DNA from: Bacteroidota bacterium
GTDB taxonomy: Bacteria; Bacteroidota; Bacteroidia; NS11-12g; UBA9320
Direction of reading: 5' to 3'
Assembly (NCBI GenBank): GCA_947468275.1
Contig: CANIKO010000005.1
Coordinates: 1-64,000 of the forward strand
Length of the DNA: 64,000 nucleotides
Part shown: piece by piece, positions 22,338 to 28,127 of the stretch
How the letters are laid out: the number at the start of each line of letters is the position of its first letter
Numbering within the stretch: position 1 is the first letter of the stretch
Program-made: the position numbers and the translations under genes
Notes under the pieces: generated by a model
Told to the model about the DNA's origin: nothing
What the model saw: only the letters and a program-made list of their open reading frames with translations
Databases searched by the model: none

Positions 22338-22922
22338 ATGAACCTAGTTTTCGCCAGTAACAATGCTCATAAATTAGAGGAAGTAAAAGCCATTTTAGCC
22401 CCTTCAAATATTCTAATAAAAAGTCTGAATGAAATCGGATTTTTGGAAGAAATTGAAGAAATAGGTATGACCTTTCATGAAAATGCGGCTGTAAAAGTGA
22501 ATGCCATTTACCTGGCAAAAGGAATCAATTGTTTTGCCGATGACAGCGGATTGGAAGTCGAAGCTGTAAATAATCAACCCGGCGTTTTTTCAGCTAGATA
22601 TGCCGGCGAACACGGAAACCACGAAGCCAATAATCAAAAATTATTAAAGGAACTAGAAGGTAAATCCAATCGCAAAGCGTGTTTTAAAACGGTGATTGCA
22701 TTATTGATGGATGGTAAAATTCAGTATTTTGAAGGAAGGGTGGATGGAGTAATTGCAGAAGAACTAAGTGGTAACAGAGGCTTTGGGTATGACCCTTTAT
22801 TTATACCTGATGGGTATGACAGGACCTTTGCCGATATGCCTGCAGAAATCAAAAACAGCATTAGCCACAGAAAACAGGCTTTGGAGGCAATGTTGGAGTT
22901 TTTAAACCAATGTAATCAATAA
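22338..22922 (+). CDS. rdgB: Non-canonical purine NTP pyrophosphatase (RdgB/HAM1)
   Basis: The enzyme hydrolyses ITP, dITP and XTP to monophosphates, keeping damaged purines out of nucleic acids. The 194-residue sequence starts MNLVFASNNAHKLEEVKAIL and has FADDSGLEVEAVNNQPGVFS, GYDPLFIPDGYDRTFADM and SHRKQALEAM, all hallmark RdgB motifs. It follows gpmI by 4 bp in an apparent two-gene operon. Its last 21 bp overlap the 3' end of convergent holA. Confidence 0.96.
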   Translation: MNLVFASNNAHKLEEVKAILAPSNILIKSLNEIGFLEEIEEIGMTFHENAAVKVNAIYLAKGINCFADDSGLEVEAVNNQPGVFSARYAGEHGNHEANNQKLLKELEGKSNRKACFKTVIALLMDGKIQYFEGRVDGVIAEELSGNRGFGYDPLFIPDGYDRTFADMPAEIKNSISHRKQALEAMLEFLNQCNQ

Positions 22923-23912
22923 TTCTTTATACAAATTTTCATCACCTGTATTGGTCATTATGCCCTTGCTTCGCAAATCGAGAGTATTTAATGAATGCAG
23001 AATATGCTCAACTTTAGCCGGAGAATAATATTTTAATGTATTTCTGAAATCTTTTACAAAATAAGGGCTCACGCCAATGATAGAAGCCAATTCCGCGTCC
23101 GATTTTGAACTGTTGGGTGCAGCCATATATACTTTTGTGAAAAAAGTATTGAGGGCAGAAATAACCATGATGATGGAATTGTTTTTGGTGTCGGAGGCAA
23201 AGAAATTGATAATTTTAGAAATCTTTCGCACATCATTTCTGGCAATGGCATTTTGAAGTTCAAATACGCTGTATTCCTTACTTATCCCAATATATTTTTC
23301 AATATCTGCGAGCGAAATAGATTTGCGATCGCCAAGGTTTAGGAATATTTTTTTGAGTTCATTTTCAACGGTACTTAAATCATTTCCGCACGATTCGGCT
23401 ATTAATTGCAATCCGGCGGTATCGGTTTTAAATCCTTTTTCTTTTAAATACCCTTCAATCCATTCAGCCAAATTATAATCCGGAATTTTTATGCTTTCAA
23501 AAACCGTGTATTTGGATAAAAGTTTAAAGGTATTGGTCTTTTTTAATTGCCCGTTTCCCCGAAAAAGAAAAACCAAAACTGTGCTTTTTAAAGGGTTTTC
23601 GAGGTAGGGGTTTAATACATCTAAATTTTTGAGGTACTGGGCTTCTTTGATAATAACGACCTGTCTTTCGGCCATCATAGGGTAGCGCTTGGCGGCACTT
23701 ACAATTGATAAGGTGTCAATATCTTTTCCGTAAAATACAGATTGGTTAAACCCTTTTTCGGCATCATTCAAAATTTCCGCTTCCAGGCGATCACAAATTT
23801 TATCATTAAAATAGGGCTCATCTCCGCAAAGGGTATAAACCGGACTGTAATGTTTCAAATCCAGTTCGGTCATCAAACCCTTAAAAGACATGCCGGAAGT
23901 TTGTTTTGCCAT
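22902..23912 (-). CDS. holA: DNA polymerase III subunit delta (HolA)
   Basis: The delta subunit opens the beta clamp in the clamp loader, together with the dnaX product encoded in the same window. The protein has 336 residues. It shows the DNA_pol3_delta pattern: YTLCGDEPYF near residue 28, VIIKEAQYLKNL near 85, FLFRGNGQLKKTNTF, and the helical C-terminal collar with IGVSPYFVKDF. The first GDEP loop replaces a real Walker A, as expected for this non-ATPase AAA+ member. It overlaps rdgB by 21 bp at the 3' ends. Confidence 0.92.
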   Translation of the reverse strand: MAKQTSGMSFKGLMTELDLKHYSPVYTLCGDEPYFNDKICDRLEAEILNDAEKGFNQSVFYGKDIDTLSIVSAAKRYPMMAERQVVIIKEAQYLKNLDVLNPYLENPLKSTVLVFLFRGNGQLKKTNTFKLLSKYTVFESIKIPDYNLAEWIEGYLKEKGFKTDTAGLQLIAESCGNDLSTVENELKKIFLNLGDRKSISLADIEKYIGISKEYSVFELQNAIARNDVRKISKIINFFASDTKNNSIIMVISALNTFFTKVYMAAPNSSKSDAELASIIGVSPYFVKDFRNTLKYYSPAKVEHILHSLNTLDLRSKGIMTNTGDENLYKELLITLV

Positions 23913-23974
23913 TGCTGCGAAATTGCAATTTTATACTGATTTTTTACTGTTATTTTGCCAACAAATTATAACCT

Positions 23975-24415
23975 ATCAAAACTTTTCAATTCCATAATAT
24001 CTCATTAAAAATCACCGAAAAGGAAGGCAAAACCTTTGTTTATGACGCGCTGCGTAAAAAAAATATTTTACTGACACCGGAGGAAGAAGTGCGGCAAAAA
24101 CTGCTTTTGTATTTGATAAAAGAGAAAAATATCCCTATAGGATTAATAGCTATTGAGCGGGCTTTAAAAATTAATGGAATGCTGAAACGCTTCGATATAT
24201 TGGTTTATAATTCATCCGGAAATCCTCATTTGGCTATTGAATGCAAGGCGCCTTCTATTAAGCTTACCCAAACTACTTTGCAACAATTGGCGGTTTATAA
24301 TCTTCACCTTAAAGCTGAGTTTTTAATGGTGAGCAATGGTTTGGAGAATATAATCAGTCAAGTTAATTTTGAAACACGGGAGATTAGGTTTTTGGAGGAG
24401 TTGCCGGATTTTTAG
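23975..24415 (+). CDS. Type I restriction R-subunit N-terminal-like nuclease domain protein, start codon apparently lost
   Basis: The open frame encodes a single small domain of the kind often annotated as 'type I restriction enzyme R protein N-terminus': KNILLTPEEEVRQ, GMLKRFDILVYNSSG, LAIECKAPSIKLTQ and a final YLMVSNG-like strand (FLMVSNGLENI). The D-x-E-x-K arrangement (D in RFDILVY; ECK) is that of a PD-(D/E)XK nuclease fold. Homologues, as I remember them, begin at the residue here encoded by ATC (23,975), just after an in-frame TAA. No ATG, GTG or TTG exists before GTG at 24,089, which would remove about 38 residues including the first strands. Either ATC is used or the gene is inactive. 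A second copy of its last about 120 bp lies at 25,076. Confidence 0.7.
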   Translation: MKTFQFHNISLKITEKEGKTFVYDALRKKNILLTPEEEVRQKLLLYLIKEKNIPIGLIAIERALKINGMLKRFDILVYNSSGNPHLAIECKAPSIKLTQTTLQQLAVYNLHLKAEFLMVSNGLENIISQVNFETREIRFLEELPDF

Positions 24416-24426
24416 AATAATTTTTT

Positions 24427-24434
24427 TACCTTTG
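24427..24434 (+). promoter_or_regulatory. Bacteroidota -7 box for the MNT/HEPN cassette
   Basis: TACCTTTG matches TAnnTTTG and ends 13 nt before the nucleotidyltransferase ATG; a TTG at 24,401 lies 23 bp upstream as a possible -33 element. The cassette therefore carries its own promoter. Confidence 0.55.
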
Positions 24435-24447
24435 CTATAAATACAGA

Positions 24448-24750
24448 ATGCAAAATATTATAACAGACAATATTGAAAATATTAAACTATTATGCCAAAC
24501 ACATAATGTAAAATCTCTTTTTGCATTCGGTTCGGTTTGTTCAGAGAATTTTGATAAAAACAGTGACATTGATTTATTGATTTCTTTTAAACCAATGGAT
24601 TATGCAGATTATGCAGATACTTATTTTACTCTAGCTAATAAATTTGAATATTTATTTCGTCGTCCGGTGGACTTGGTCACAGACAAATCGCTTTCAAATC
24701 CCTATTTTATTAAATCAGTAAACCAAGCTAAAACTTTGATTTATGACTGA
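24448..24750 (+). CDS. Minimal nucleotidyltransferase antitoxin (MntA-like)
   Basis: A 100-residue protein with the minimal nucleotidyltransferase signature: G28-S29, then D40-x-D42 in a GS-x10-DxD arrangement, with a third acidic residue at D75 (RRPVDLV). In the MntA/HepT systems such proteins inactivate the partner HEPN RNase by adding AMP residues near its active site. The gene is followed by the HEPN gene with an 8-bp overlap, the usual operon design. Confident as to family; the antitoxin role is inferred from the pair. Confidence 0.88.
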   Translation: MQNIITDNIENIKLLCQTHNVKSLFAFGSVCSENFDKNSDIDLLISFKPMDYADYADTYFTLANKFEYLFRRPVDLVTDKSLSNPYFIKSVNQAKTLIYD

Positions 24751-25075
24751 TGAAATAAGGAAAAATCTGTTTGATATTCGTGAATCTATTTATTCAATTG
24801 AAACCTATTTAGGCGAAAAACGCGATTTCAATATCTATATTAAAAACAAAATGCTTCGCAGAGCAATTGAAAGGGAGTTTGAAATAATTGGTGAAGCCAT
24901 GAACCGGATTGATAAACTGGATTCATCGGTTGAGATATCTAGTAAATTTCAAATTATAGGAATGAGAAATCGTGTAATTCATAGCTACGACAAAGTAGAT
25001 GATGAAATAGTTTGGGGTACAATTATTCGTCATTTGCCTGTGTTGAAAACAGAAGTTGAGACTTTGTTAAAGTAA
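24743..25075 (+). CDS. HEPN-domain RNase toxin (HepT-like, DUF86)
   Basis: A 110-residue all-helical protein with the HEPN RNase motif R75-N76-x3-H80-x-Y82 (MRNRVIHSYD). The conserved Tyr is the residue that MntA-type partners AMPylate in studied systems. It overlaps the nucleotidyltransferase gene by 8 bp. Its stop codon is immediately followed by a decayed copy of the 3' end of the gene upstream of the cassette. Confidence 0.88.
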   Translation: MTDEIRKNLFDIRESIYSIETYLGEKRDFNIYIKNKMLRRAIEREFEIIGEAMNRIDKLDSSVEISSKFQIIGMRNRVIHSYDKVDDEIVWGTIIRHLPVLKTEVETLLK

Positions 25076-25201
25076 CTTGCCGTTTATAATATTCACCTGA
25101 AAACCGTATTTTTAATGGTGAGCAATGGTTTGGAGAATATAATCATTCAAGTTAATTTTGAAACAAGGGAGATTAGGTTTTTGAAGGAATTGCCCTTCTA
25201 A
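25076..25201 (+). pseudogene. Decayed second copy of the 3' end of the nuclease-domain gene
   Basis: This stretch aligns with 24,287-24,415, the end of the nuclease-domain gene upstream. About 106 of 118 positions match, including an uninterrupted 37-nt identity around ATGGTGAGCAATGGTTTGG. It starts at the base after the HEPN stop codon and ends in the corresponding stop codon (ELPF-stop against ELPDF-stop). There is one single-base deletion near the left end and no start codon, so it cannot make a protein. The two copies flank the toxin-antitoxin pair. Confidence 0.85.
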
Positions 25202-25214
25202 GGCAAATCAAGAT

Positions 25215-25244
25215 TTTGCGATTTGCATGCTTTGTTTATTTTTG
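25215..25244 (+). promoter_or_regulatory. Full Bacteroidota-type promoter for the LamG protein
   Basis: TTTG at 25,215-25,218, an 18-bp spacer and TATTTTTG at 25,237-25,244 match the Bacteroidota -33/-7 arrangement. The leader to the ATG at 25,356 would be about 105 nt. Confidence 0.55.
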
Positions 25245-25355
25245 CAATCAAAATAATGAATATGAGTTACCCATTAACTCGATAGGTTAAACCCATTTAC
25301 AAATTAAAGGGCAATCCAAATTTCCAAATTCTAAAAAAAACAGAATTAATTAAAT

Positions 25356-27989
25356 ATGAATTTAAAGTATACATTTTTAACCTTTTTTACTTGTTTGGGG
25401 ATTTCTAATTCCTCCATGGCTCAAGTGCCTTCATACGTACCTAAAAATGGATTAGTAGGCTGGTGGCCATTTGCAGGAAACGCAAATGACCAAAGTGGAA
25501 ATGGAAATAATTTTACAGTAAATACGGCTACGTTAACAACTGATAGAAATGGAATCTCAAATTCGGCCTATGTTTTTAATGGGTCTTCTGATTATCTTGT
25601 TAATAATTCTTTGAGCAATACATTTTCTGATACAGGTGATTTTACCGTTGCTACCTGGATTCAAAAAACCTCTATTGCGGCAGGTGTCGCAATAATGAGT
25701 GGAACGCCAAATAGCAGTTATTTTATATGGTTAATTCAGGGAGGAACGAGTGATATGTCGTTTGGAACCAATAAACAAAGTTCATCGTGGTTTTATGCAA
25801 AATCAACGTTTAATGTTAACGACTGGGATCATTATGTGGGTGTTTATCATAAAGATACCATGCTTTTTTATAAAAATGGAAGTAAAGTCGCCACAAATAT
25901 TTTTACATATACAAGTGTTTTACAATCCGCTTTTCCATTATACATTGGCCGAGGGGTGTCAGGCAATTATTATGAGGGAAAAGTTGATGACATTGGGATT
26001 TGGAAACGAGCTTTAACCGATAACGAGATTATATTGATTTATAAAACTAAATGCGATACAATTATTAAATCGCCACCTACAAGTCAAAAGTTAAGAATTT
26101 CTGGATATGCCAAGTTTACCATTGTGGCGAACACTGCCAATTATCAGTGGCAAAAAAACAGTGGTTCGGGGTTTCAAAATATTTCAAATGGCGGTCAGTT
26201 TAGTGGGGCCACCACAAAAATTTTAAATGTTTTTAATTTGAGTCTATCTAACAATAATCAGCAATTTAGGTGCATTGCATCGAATGGAACATGCGCTGAT
26301 ACTAGCAAAATTGCCACCCTTACGGTATGTGGCGATATTACTCAACAGCCAAAGAATCAGAGTATTATTATTTTTTCAAATGCAAAATTTGTAGTTGTAT
26401 CAAACGAAAAATCTGCAAGTTTTCAATGGCAGTATAATGGCGGTTCAGGTTTTAAGAATATTAGTAACTCCACACAATTTAATGGTGCGAACAATGATAC
26501 TTTGGATATTTTAAATTGCTCTTTGTCGAACAATGGGCAACTTTTTCGATGTGTTGTGAATCAGGGATCTTGCGTCGATACATCGCAAACGGCTATATTA
26601 AATGTATGCGGAAAAATAAATGAGCAGCCGAAGGATCAATCAATTTTTTTAAACGGAACAGCTCAATTTTCAATATCTTCGACTGATGTTTCGGCTGCCT
26701 TTCAATGGCAAATCAATACAGGTTCGGGATTTCAAACCATTTCAAATACAGGGAAATATAGTGGGGTCACAACAAAATTATTAACTGTTTCAAGTGCATT
26801 AATTACAAATAATAATCAATTGTTTCGTTGTATTGTTAAACATGGAGCATGCACAGACACTTCGCTTTCCGCAACACTTTATGTGTGCGGTAAAATTACA
26901 CTCCAACCTAAAAACCAGACAATTTTTCTGAATAAAAATGCTCTTTTTATTACTACCTCAAATGATTTATCAGCAACTTTTCAATGGCAGATAAATGCAG
27001 GCTTTGGATTTCAGAATGTTACGAATTCGGGACAATTCAAAGGGGCAAATAATGATACATTGATAGTTTCGGATGCAAATATGTTTAACAACAAGAATAC
27101 AGTTCATTGCATTGTTTCTCAAGGAGCATGCATTGATACCACTTCTTCTGCGATTCTTAAAGTATGTGGTGAAATAGTTGTTCAACCTATTGATCAGTCA
27201 GTTAAATTAACTAAAACAGCTGTCTTTAGTACATCATCTAATGATCAGTATGCCACATACCAATGGCAGGTTGATACAGGTTTGGGTTTCATAAATGTTA
27301 TGAATTCAGGGCAATTCAATGGAGCAAGTAGCGATAAACTTACAATTTCAAAGGCGGTCATCTTAAATAATAACATACGACTTCATTGTATAGTTAATCA
27401 TGGCTCATGCATAGATACAAGTGCAGCTGGGAGGTTACTTGTGTGTGGGGAAATAACGGATAATCCAGCTAATCAAACAGTATATATCTCAAATAATGCT
27501 GAATTTAAAGTTATTTCAAATGACATTAAGGCAACTTTTCAATGGCAGTCAAATACAGGAACTGGTTTTCAAAACCTCATCAATGGAGGTAAATATAACG
27601 GGGCAACGGCTAATAAATTATTGATTAGCGGAACAACACTATCAAATAATAATGAAAAATTGCGCTGTGCGGTGCATTCTGGTTCATGCAGGGATACCTC
27701 ATTGGAAGCTATTTTAACAGTAAAAGATAAAAGCGGTATTAAAAATGAAATGAAACAACCACTTTTTAAAGTATATCCAAATCCTATAAGTGAATTTATC
27801 ACCATTCAAATTGATACTAAATTAATTGGATCCATTTATTTTCTTTATAATCAATTAGGAATATGCATTTTATCAGGTGAGTTAAGATCTGAGAAAACAT
27901 GCGTTAAAACAGGGCATATAACTGCTGGGCTATATTTGTTGCAAATTGGCAATATAACGGAGCAATCGGTCCGAATAGTTAAATTCTAA
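25356..27989 (+). CDS. Secreted LamG-domain protein with six Ig-like repeats and type IX secretion signal
   Basis: An 877-residue exported protein. Residues 1-23 are a signal peptide ending SSMAQ. Residues about 30-230 form a LamG/concanavalin-like domain (NGLVGWWPFAGNANDQSG at the start, IGRGVSGNYYEGKVDDIGIW near the end). Then come six Ig-like repeats of 93 residues, each with a QWQ core (residues 263, 356, 449, 542, 635, 728) and two Cys, one at the unit boundary and one in the RCIV-x-HGSC region. The last about 75 residues, starting KVYPNPISEFITIQ, are a type A type IX secretion domain, so the protein is expected on or outside the outer membrane. Adhesin or glycan binding is possible but unproven. 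Confidence 0.88.
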   Translation: MNLKYTFLTFFTCLGISNSSMAQVPSYVPKNGLVGWWPFAGNANDQSGNGNNFTVNTATLTTDRNGISNSAYVFNGSSDYLVNNSLSNTFSDTGDFTVATWIQKTSIAAGVAIMSGTPNSSYFIWLIQGGTSDMSFGTNKQSSSWFYAKSTFNVNDWDHYVGVYHKDTMLFYKNGSKVATNIFTYTSVLQSAFPLYIGRGVSGNYYEGKVDDIGIWKRALTDNEIILIYKTKCDTIIKSPPTSQKLRISGYAKFTIVANTANYQWQKNSGSGFQNISNGGQFSGATTKILNVFNLSLSNNNQQFRCIASNGTCADTSKIATLTVCGDITQQPKNQSIIIFSNAKFVVVSNEKSASFQWQYNGGSGFKNISNSTQFNGANNDTLDILNCSLSNNGQLFRCVVNQGSCVDTSQTAILNVCGKINEQPKDQSIFLNGTAQFSISSTDVSAAFQWQINTGSGFQTISNTGKYSGVTTKLLTVSSALITNNNQLFRCIVKHGACTDTSLSATLYVCGKITLQPKNQTIFLNKNALFITTSNDLSATFQWQINAGFGFQNVTNSGQFKGANNDTLIVSDANMFNNKNTVHCIVSQGACIDTTSSAILKVCGEIVVQPIDQSVKLTKTAVFSTSSNDQYATYQWQVDTGLGFINVMNSGQFNGASSDKLTISKAVILNNNIRLHCIVNHGSCIDTSAAGRLLVCGEITDNPANQTVYISNNAEFKVISNDIKATFQWQSNTGTGFQNLINGGKYNGATANKLLISGTTLSNNNEKLRCAVHSGSCRDTSLEAILTVKDKSGIKNEMKQPLFKVYPNPISEFITIQIDTKLIGSIYFLYNQLGICILSGELRSEKTCVKTGHITAGLYLLQIGNITEQSVRIVKF
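26052..27722 (+). repeat. Six tandem 279-bp coding repeats (Ig-like domains)
   Basis: The six Ig-like units of the LamG protein are spaced exactly 93 codons apart, judged from the QWQ codons. DNA identity between units is moderate, so they are old duplications rather than a recent expansion. Conserved marks per unit are a boundary Cys-Gly, a QP-x2-Q turn, QWQ, a G-x-(F/Y)-x-G turn and a paired Cys. Confidence 0.8.
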
Positions 27990-28109
27990 ATCTTGCCAAA
28001 AAGATATTAAAAATCGTTTTTAGAATATACCTAATTTGAAAAATAGGTTAAAAGTTGTTTTCCTGATTTTCGGTTTAGGTAAACGTATTAAAAGTGTCAA
28101 ATCAAAACT

Positions 28110-28117
28110 TATCTTTG
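28110..28117 (+). promoter_or_regulatory. Bacteroidota -7 box for gltX
   Basis: TATCTTTG matches TAnnTTTG and ends 10 nt before the gltX ATG. Confidence 0.5.
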
Positions 28118-28127
28118 CCCCTTATTT

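Follow-up and report, generated by a model that had tools for sequence, protein, structure and literature searches.

The window analysed here, 64,000 nucleotides from a Bacteroidota genome (G000, one of the seven genomes of its genus), carries an MNT–HepT operon of about 650 bp that has probably inserted at the 3' end of a small nuclease-domain gene, with a long duplication of its target and later gene conversion between the two copies. The pair (24448-25075) is sandwiched by an intact HSDR_N_2 gene and a copy of that gene's own 3' end. The features of the locus, in window positions, are the following.

22902-23912, minus strand: holA, left neighbour of the HSDR_N_2 gene
23975-24415, plus strand: HSDR_N_2 host gene, intact and small, 146 aa from an ATC at 23975 (Pfam PF13588, E 1.4e-32)
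24285-24405, plus strand: left (functional) copy of the duplicated HSDR 3' end, coding on to the stop at 24415
24428-24435, plus strand: TACCTTTG, a Bacteroidota-type -7 box 12 nt before the MNT start, read from the sequence and of putative function
24448-24750, plus strand: MNT (MntA-like) antitoxin, 100 aa, GSx10DxD (nucleotidyltransferase Pfam, E 2.4e-13)
24743-25075, plus strand: HEPN (HepT-like) toxin, 110 aa, Rx4HxY (RNRVIHSY; Pfam, E 5.5e-19)
25076-25201, plus strand: right copy, an HSDR_N_2 3' fragment without a start codon, in frame as far as its own stop
25356-27989: large LamG/Ig-like secreted protein, the next feature to the right of the HSDR fragment

The initial annotation had placed the MNT and HEPN genes between the end of a nuclease-domain gene and a copy of that end with about 90% identity. 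The repeat search bears this out, as 24285-24405 and 25074-25194 form an ungapped direct repeat of 121 nt with 89% identity, far beyond chance. The HepT stop codon occupies 25073-25075 and the HSDR copy starts at 25076, so the copy does begin at the base after the stop, as had been described. From there to 25201 runs a single open frame (translation LAVYNIHLKTVFLMVSNGLENIIIQVNFETREIRFLKELPF*) which reaches its own stop and, again as described, has no start codon. The one-base deletion that had been attributed to the fragment does not exist: the copy is ungapped, in frame, and one codon shorter at its end than the intact gene (LPF* versus LPDF*). It is the second HSDR copy of a relative, G003, that does have a one-base insertion. 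The repeat in the window is plain HSDR coding sequence. By eye, no attC-like site was seen at the cassette end, where host coding sequence begins right after the HepT stop. The locus also differs from a transposon or insertion-sequence composite in that no transposase was found among the ORFs of 23975-25201, and the repeat search of the locus revealed no inverted repeats bounding the cassette.

Comparison of the holA–gltX gap among close relatives, a check proposed with the initial annotation, gave both empty and occupied sites. The HSDR_N_2 orthologue adjoins holA in the genus. In G004, G005, G001 and G002 there is one intact HSDR gene, with neither cassette nor second copy at the locus. G003 has the same cassette at the same junction together with its own right HSDR copy, and its repeat extends about 20 bp beyond the stop codon in both copies. 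An assembly chimera is unlikely, because the junction is common to two separate and diverged assemblies, G000 and G003. It had been suggested that a tandem paralogue might have been overwritten by an incoming cassette, an event which would leave a 3' fragment behind the cassette. However, the HSDR gene is present in 138 of 147 relatives, two full copies occur in none of the genus members listed, the second copy starts precisely at the end of HepT, and the occurrence of the same footprint at unrelated genes (see below) would require many tandem duplications. A tandem HSDR paralogue was therefore rejected as the origin, and we consider its overwriting very improbable.

The remaining proposal was that an element had inserted at the gene end while carrying a replacement end. 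Its first part, insertion at a gene end that is now duplicated, agrees with the empty sites and with the junction shared with G003. The second part, a carried replacement end, is not favoured by the HSDR sequences. In a 92-bp block, seven informative sites pair the left with the right copy within a genome and none groups the copies by side, so that each genome's two copies would derive from, or have been kept alike with, its own gene. The HSDR repeat appears to be host sequence maintained by recombination and not a foreign replacement end, and a duplicated target followed by gene conversion fits the HSDR sites better.

One-sided homologous capture would assign a different origin to one of the ends. 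A linear donor from a related strain, already carrying the cassette, would join by homology on one side and illegitimately on the other, leaving one end donor-derived. Homology-facilitated illegitimate recombination is a documented process (PMC3240628), and the right copy in G000 ends LPF*, as in G004 and G005, and not LPDF* as its left copy does. At paaD in G147, the left end (TAG, GGGTTGTA) matches another strain, unlike the right end, which together with its flank matches the alleles at the empty sites of G152 and G153. The paaD ends would argue against both copies deriving from the target, or point to later recombination, and a carried replacement end is possible at that gene. Against capture, the HSDR copies within each genome share private variants, seven to zero, and it is left unexplained how the cassette first reached so many different genes. 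We regard one-sided capture as rather unlikely.

In the reading that we prefer, duplication of the target followed by gene conversion, a cassette without a transposase would enter the 3' end of HSDR_N_2 and duplicate about 120-150 bp of it. The duplication would extend past the stop codon, leaving a whole host gene with the left copy and a dead fragment as the right copy; since everything between the point of insertion and the end of the gene would be duplicated, a complete copy of the gene would be retained. The two direct repeats would then recombine by gene conversion and stay alike in each genome. They would also permit precise loss of the cassette, and its transfer from strain to strain by ordinary homologous recombination. 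Candidates for the formation of the first joint are a staggered break with fill-in, template switching, or one-sided homologous capture. We infer both that the repeat arose by target duplication and that the cassette would be transferred and excised by these routes.

Divergence within the genus bears on transfer. Between G000 and G003, dS is 0.33-0.50 for the cassette, 0.95 for HSDR, 2.3 for holA and 0.52 for gltX. Since the cassette dS is below those of HSDR and holA, although G003 branches outside G000, G004 and G005 in holA and pgm, the cassette, perhaps with the segment toward gltX, is judged from these values to have been exchanged inside the genus. The HSDR–gltX interval (24416-28127 in the window; L142, L143, L144, L145, L146) is a cargo hotspot in the genus, with a length that ranges from 66 bp (G001) through about 2 kb (G003), 3.7 kb (G000) and about 13 kb (G002) to about 24 kb (G004 and G005). 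Beyond 25201 the right flank is different cargo in every genus member, and for this reason the original right-hand target flank is uncheckable at the HSDR locus. Neither HSDR fragments nor the cassette were found elsewhere in the 13-24 kb interval of G002, G004 and G005, and there are no other copies of the cassette within G000 at the DNA level.

The suggestion that the cassette is a very small mobile unit is supported both by its footprint at other cassettes and by the alignment of HepT cassettes, each taken with 400 bp of flanking sequence, in 1,820 pairs, in nearly all of which homology is limited to the two ORFs. Only 4 of these pairs have homology that continues beyond about 25 bp from the HepT stop, and upstream of MNT it seldom reaches further than about 60 bp; at the identity of most pairs, near 70%, diverged non-coding flanks could be missed and shared neighbour genes should mostly show. 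Long shared flanks on both sides occur only in the G000–G003 pair. A promoter box belonging to the cassette had also been described. The box TACCTTTG is indeed present, and its ownership is probable, a pattern match being weak by itself, because TAnnTTTG-type boxes lie at about the same distance upstream of MNT in many loci of the family. In about 15 of 80 loci, whose flanks are otherwise unrelated, a motif close to AACTGGTTACAACA is found about 5-25 nt downstream of the toxin stop (L071, L073, L077, L082, L090, L106, L133 and others), and may mark the cassette's own right end.

Site-specific integration in trans, either as integron cassettes or through an integrase that uses gene ends as attachment sites, would account for a GGTTACAACA-like motif after the HepT stop in 15 of 80 loci, and for HepT loci in arrays with about 195-bp repeats between genes, which resemble integron arrays (L265). 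Toxin–antitoxin cassettes are also known from super-integrons (PMC2654758), and like them the window pair is a minimal operon, probably with its own promoter, that would behave as a mobile cassette. It differs from them in the lack of a visible attC-like site in the window and in a flanking repeat made of host coding sequence. Moreover, repeat sequence and length vary among the gene-end loci (66-220 bp), 5' as well as 3' gene ends are used (L040, L313), and the repeat in the window is plain coding sequence, no inverted-repeat ends having been found to bound the cassette. A search for a shared attC-like hairpin after HepT gave no consistent fold. Integration of this type is thus improbable in our judgement.

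Further cases with empty sites were found at paaD, nuoF and thrS, and in each of them the host gene stays whole. At paaD in G147, the last 66 bp of the gene are repeated about 5 nt after the HepT stop, and the site is empty in G152 and in contig C5 of G153. A second contig of G153 has the same paaD insert with HepT cut short, and its right copy is of the left type, including the bases past the stop. The toxin of the cassette is thus broken in two relatives, by a deletion in HepT of one G153 contig (L182, about 230-270) and by a stop codon in G003. At nuoF in G266 the repeat begins 2 nt downstream of the HepT stop, and nuoF and nuoG are adjacent in G122 and G230. The thrS case, in G003, has a ParE-type pair as cargo, which separates two copies of the thrS start (126 bp), a broken one and an intact one. 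The native upstream flank is retained by the left copy and the native gene by the right copy, and the site is empty in five genus members. Another ParE-type pair of G003, with a 65-bp flanking repeat (L312), is also found in G000 (C10:111391-112185), G004 and G005 at 78-80% identity. It was set aside as a second within-genus case, because the presence of the pair in those genomes too yields no empty site there.

Whether other cassettes lie beside fragments of host genes, the second check proposed with the initial annotation, was answered by a wider screen. Initially, 75 HepT loci had flanks of sufficient length, and in about 20 of them significant direct repeats surrounded the cassette; 150 mismatched flank pairs scored 29 bits at most. 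A tighter rule was then applied (left copy ending at most 250 bp from the cassette, right copy starting at most 120 bp from the toxin stop, at least 36 bits), under which 22 of 142 HepT loci and 11 of 51 ParE/RelE (PF05016) loci were positive, with direct repeats of 31-198 bp. The controls gave 9 of 234 for gene-sized, gene-bounded segments and 3 of 396 for random segments. HepT and ParE each differ from the gene-bounded segments (Fisher p about 1e-4 each, to be read with the phylogenetic non-independence of the loci in mind). Of the nine gene-bounded positives, at least one (L274) itself resembles a ParE-type locus. No repeat is detectable around about 85% of HepT cassettes. A footprint specific to MNT–HEPN was rejected, as ParE-type cassettes have it equally often.

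With gene names read from translations, without a family search one by one, the positives at gene ends include HSDR, paaD, nuoF and LytTR genes, a small-protein gene (L046), an integrase gene (L293), a cytochrome-like end (L310) and convergent genes (L090 and L291). Gene starts are represented by L040 and by thrS in L313, and a terminator by L064. Length (66-220 bp) and sequence of the repeat differ from one gene-end locus to the next. Other positives have dispersed, palindromic or array repeats that are not gene ends (L265, L270, L274, L267, L194, L097). In L265 (1515-4336), four copies of a 192-198-bp repeat lie between single genes or pairs, one of which is MNT–HepT, in an integron-like array.

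For restriction-modification genes, insertion with long target duplication is known from Helicobacter pylori (Nobusato et al., 2000, as described in PMC1643837, PMC3031569 and PMC3874152). The likeness includes the lack of an own transposase, flanking direct repeats of about 100 bp whose sequence occurs once at the empty site, and a repeat length that varies between loci (here 121 nt, and 66-220 bp elsewhere). The cargo differs, being here a toxin–antitoxin operon instead of a restriction-modification system, as does the fact that many repeats here are gene ends which leave the host gene whole, at many Bacteroidia loci. The locus would work like the restriction-modification phenomenon and extend its cargo to MNT–HepT. 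In a literature coverage that is incomplete, we found no published report of such insertion for toxin–antitoxin cassettes.

How chromosomal toxin–antitoxin pairs without a recombinase arrive at new places is an old open question. The present data suggest that such operons are able to move without a transposase and without breaking the host gene. We propose tentatively, at somewhat less than even confidence, that minimal toxin–antitoxin operons of unrelated families spread in Bacteroidia by a general route, a transposase-independent insertion that duplicates about 60-220 bp of the target. Surviving insertions would then be found at gene ends because the duplication spares the host gene, and the repeats would serve as built-in homology for excision and for transfer between strains. 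This would explain non-lethal inserts inside an operon (nuoF–nuoG) or beside an essential gene (thrS). The duplicated gene end is a readable footprint that can be counted in genomes, and it links toxin–antitoxin pairs to the insertion pattern known for restriction-modification genes. For annotation, such fragments should be taken as insertion scars and not as genes.

The window pair itself is a putative type VII-like toxin–antitoxin operon. It shares with type VII HepT–MntA (HEPN–MNT; PMC7641770; PDB 5yep, 6m6u, 7ae9) an antitoxin-first overlapping operon (ORF overlap of 8 bp), the MNT motif GSx10DxD, the HEPN motif Rx4HxY (Rx4-6H with a neighbouring tyrosine) and purifying selection. MNT residues G28, S29, D40 and D42 of the first motif are invariant in alignment A1, and HepT residues R75, N76, H80 and Y82 are invariant in the 14 sequences of alignment A2. 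Judged by dN/dS between G000 and G003 (0.12 for MNT, 0.075 for HepT), both proteins are under purifying selection. PADLOC assigned the MNT protein to the candidate system PDC-S09. In contrast to these likenesses, HepT has only weak matches to solved type VII members (E 0.001-0.007), which came from profiles only, single-sequence PDB searches giving no match, and HepT is broken in G003, where a TAA stop interrupts it (L144, 2033-2365). In type VII systems MNT AMPylates a HepT tyrosine and HepT is an RNase, activities that are predicted for the window pair.

At its conserved start, which directly follows an in-frame TAA (23969 in G000), the HSDR_N_2 gene lacks an ATG, GTG or TTG. At this position (23960-23990; also in L144, L142 and L143) the codon is ATC in G000, G004 and G005 and CTG in G003, and a non-standard start codon seems to be kept in these four genomes.
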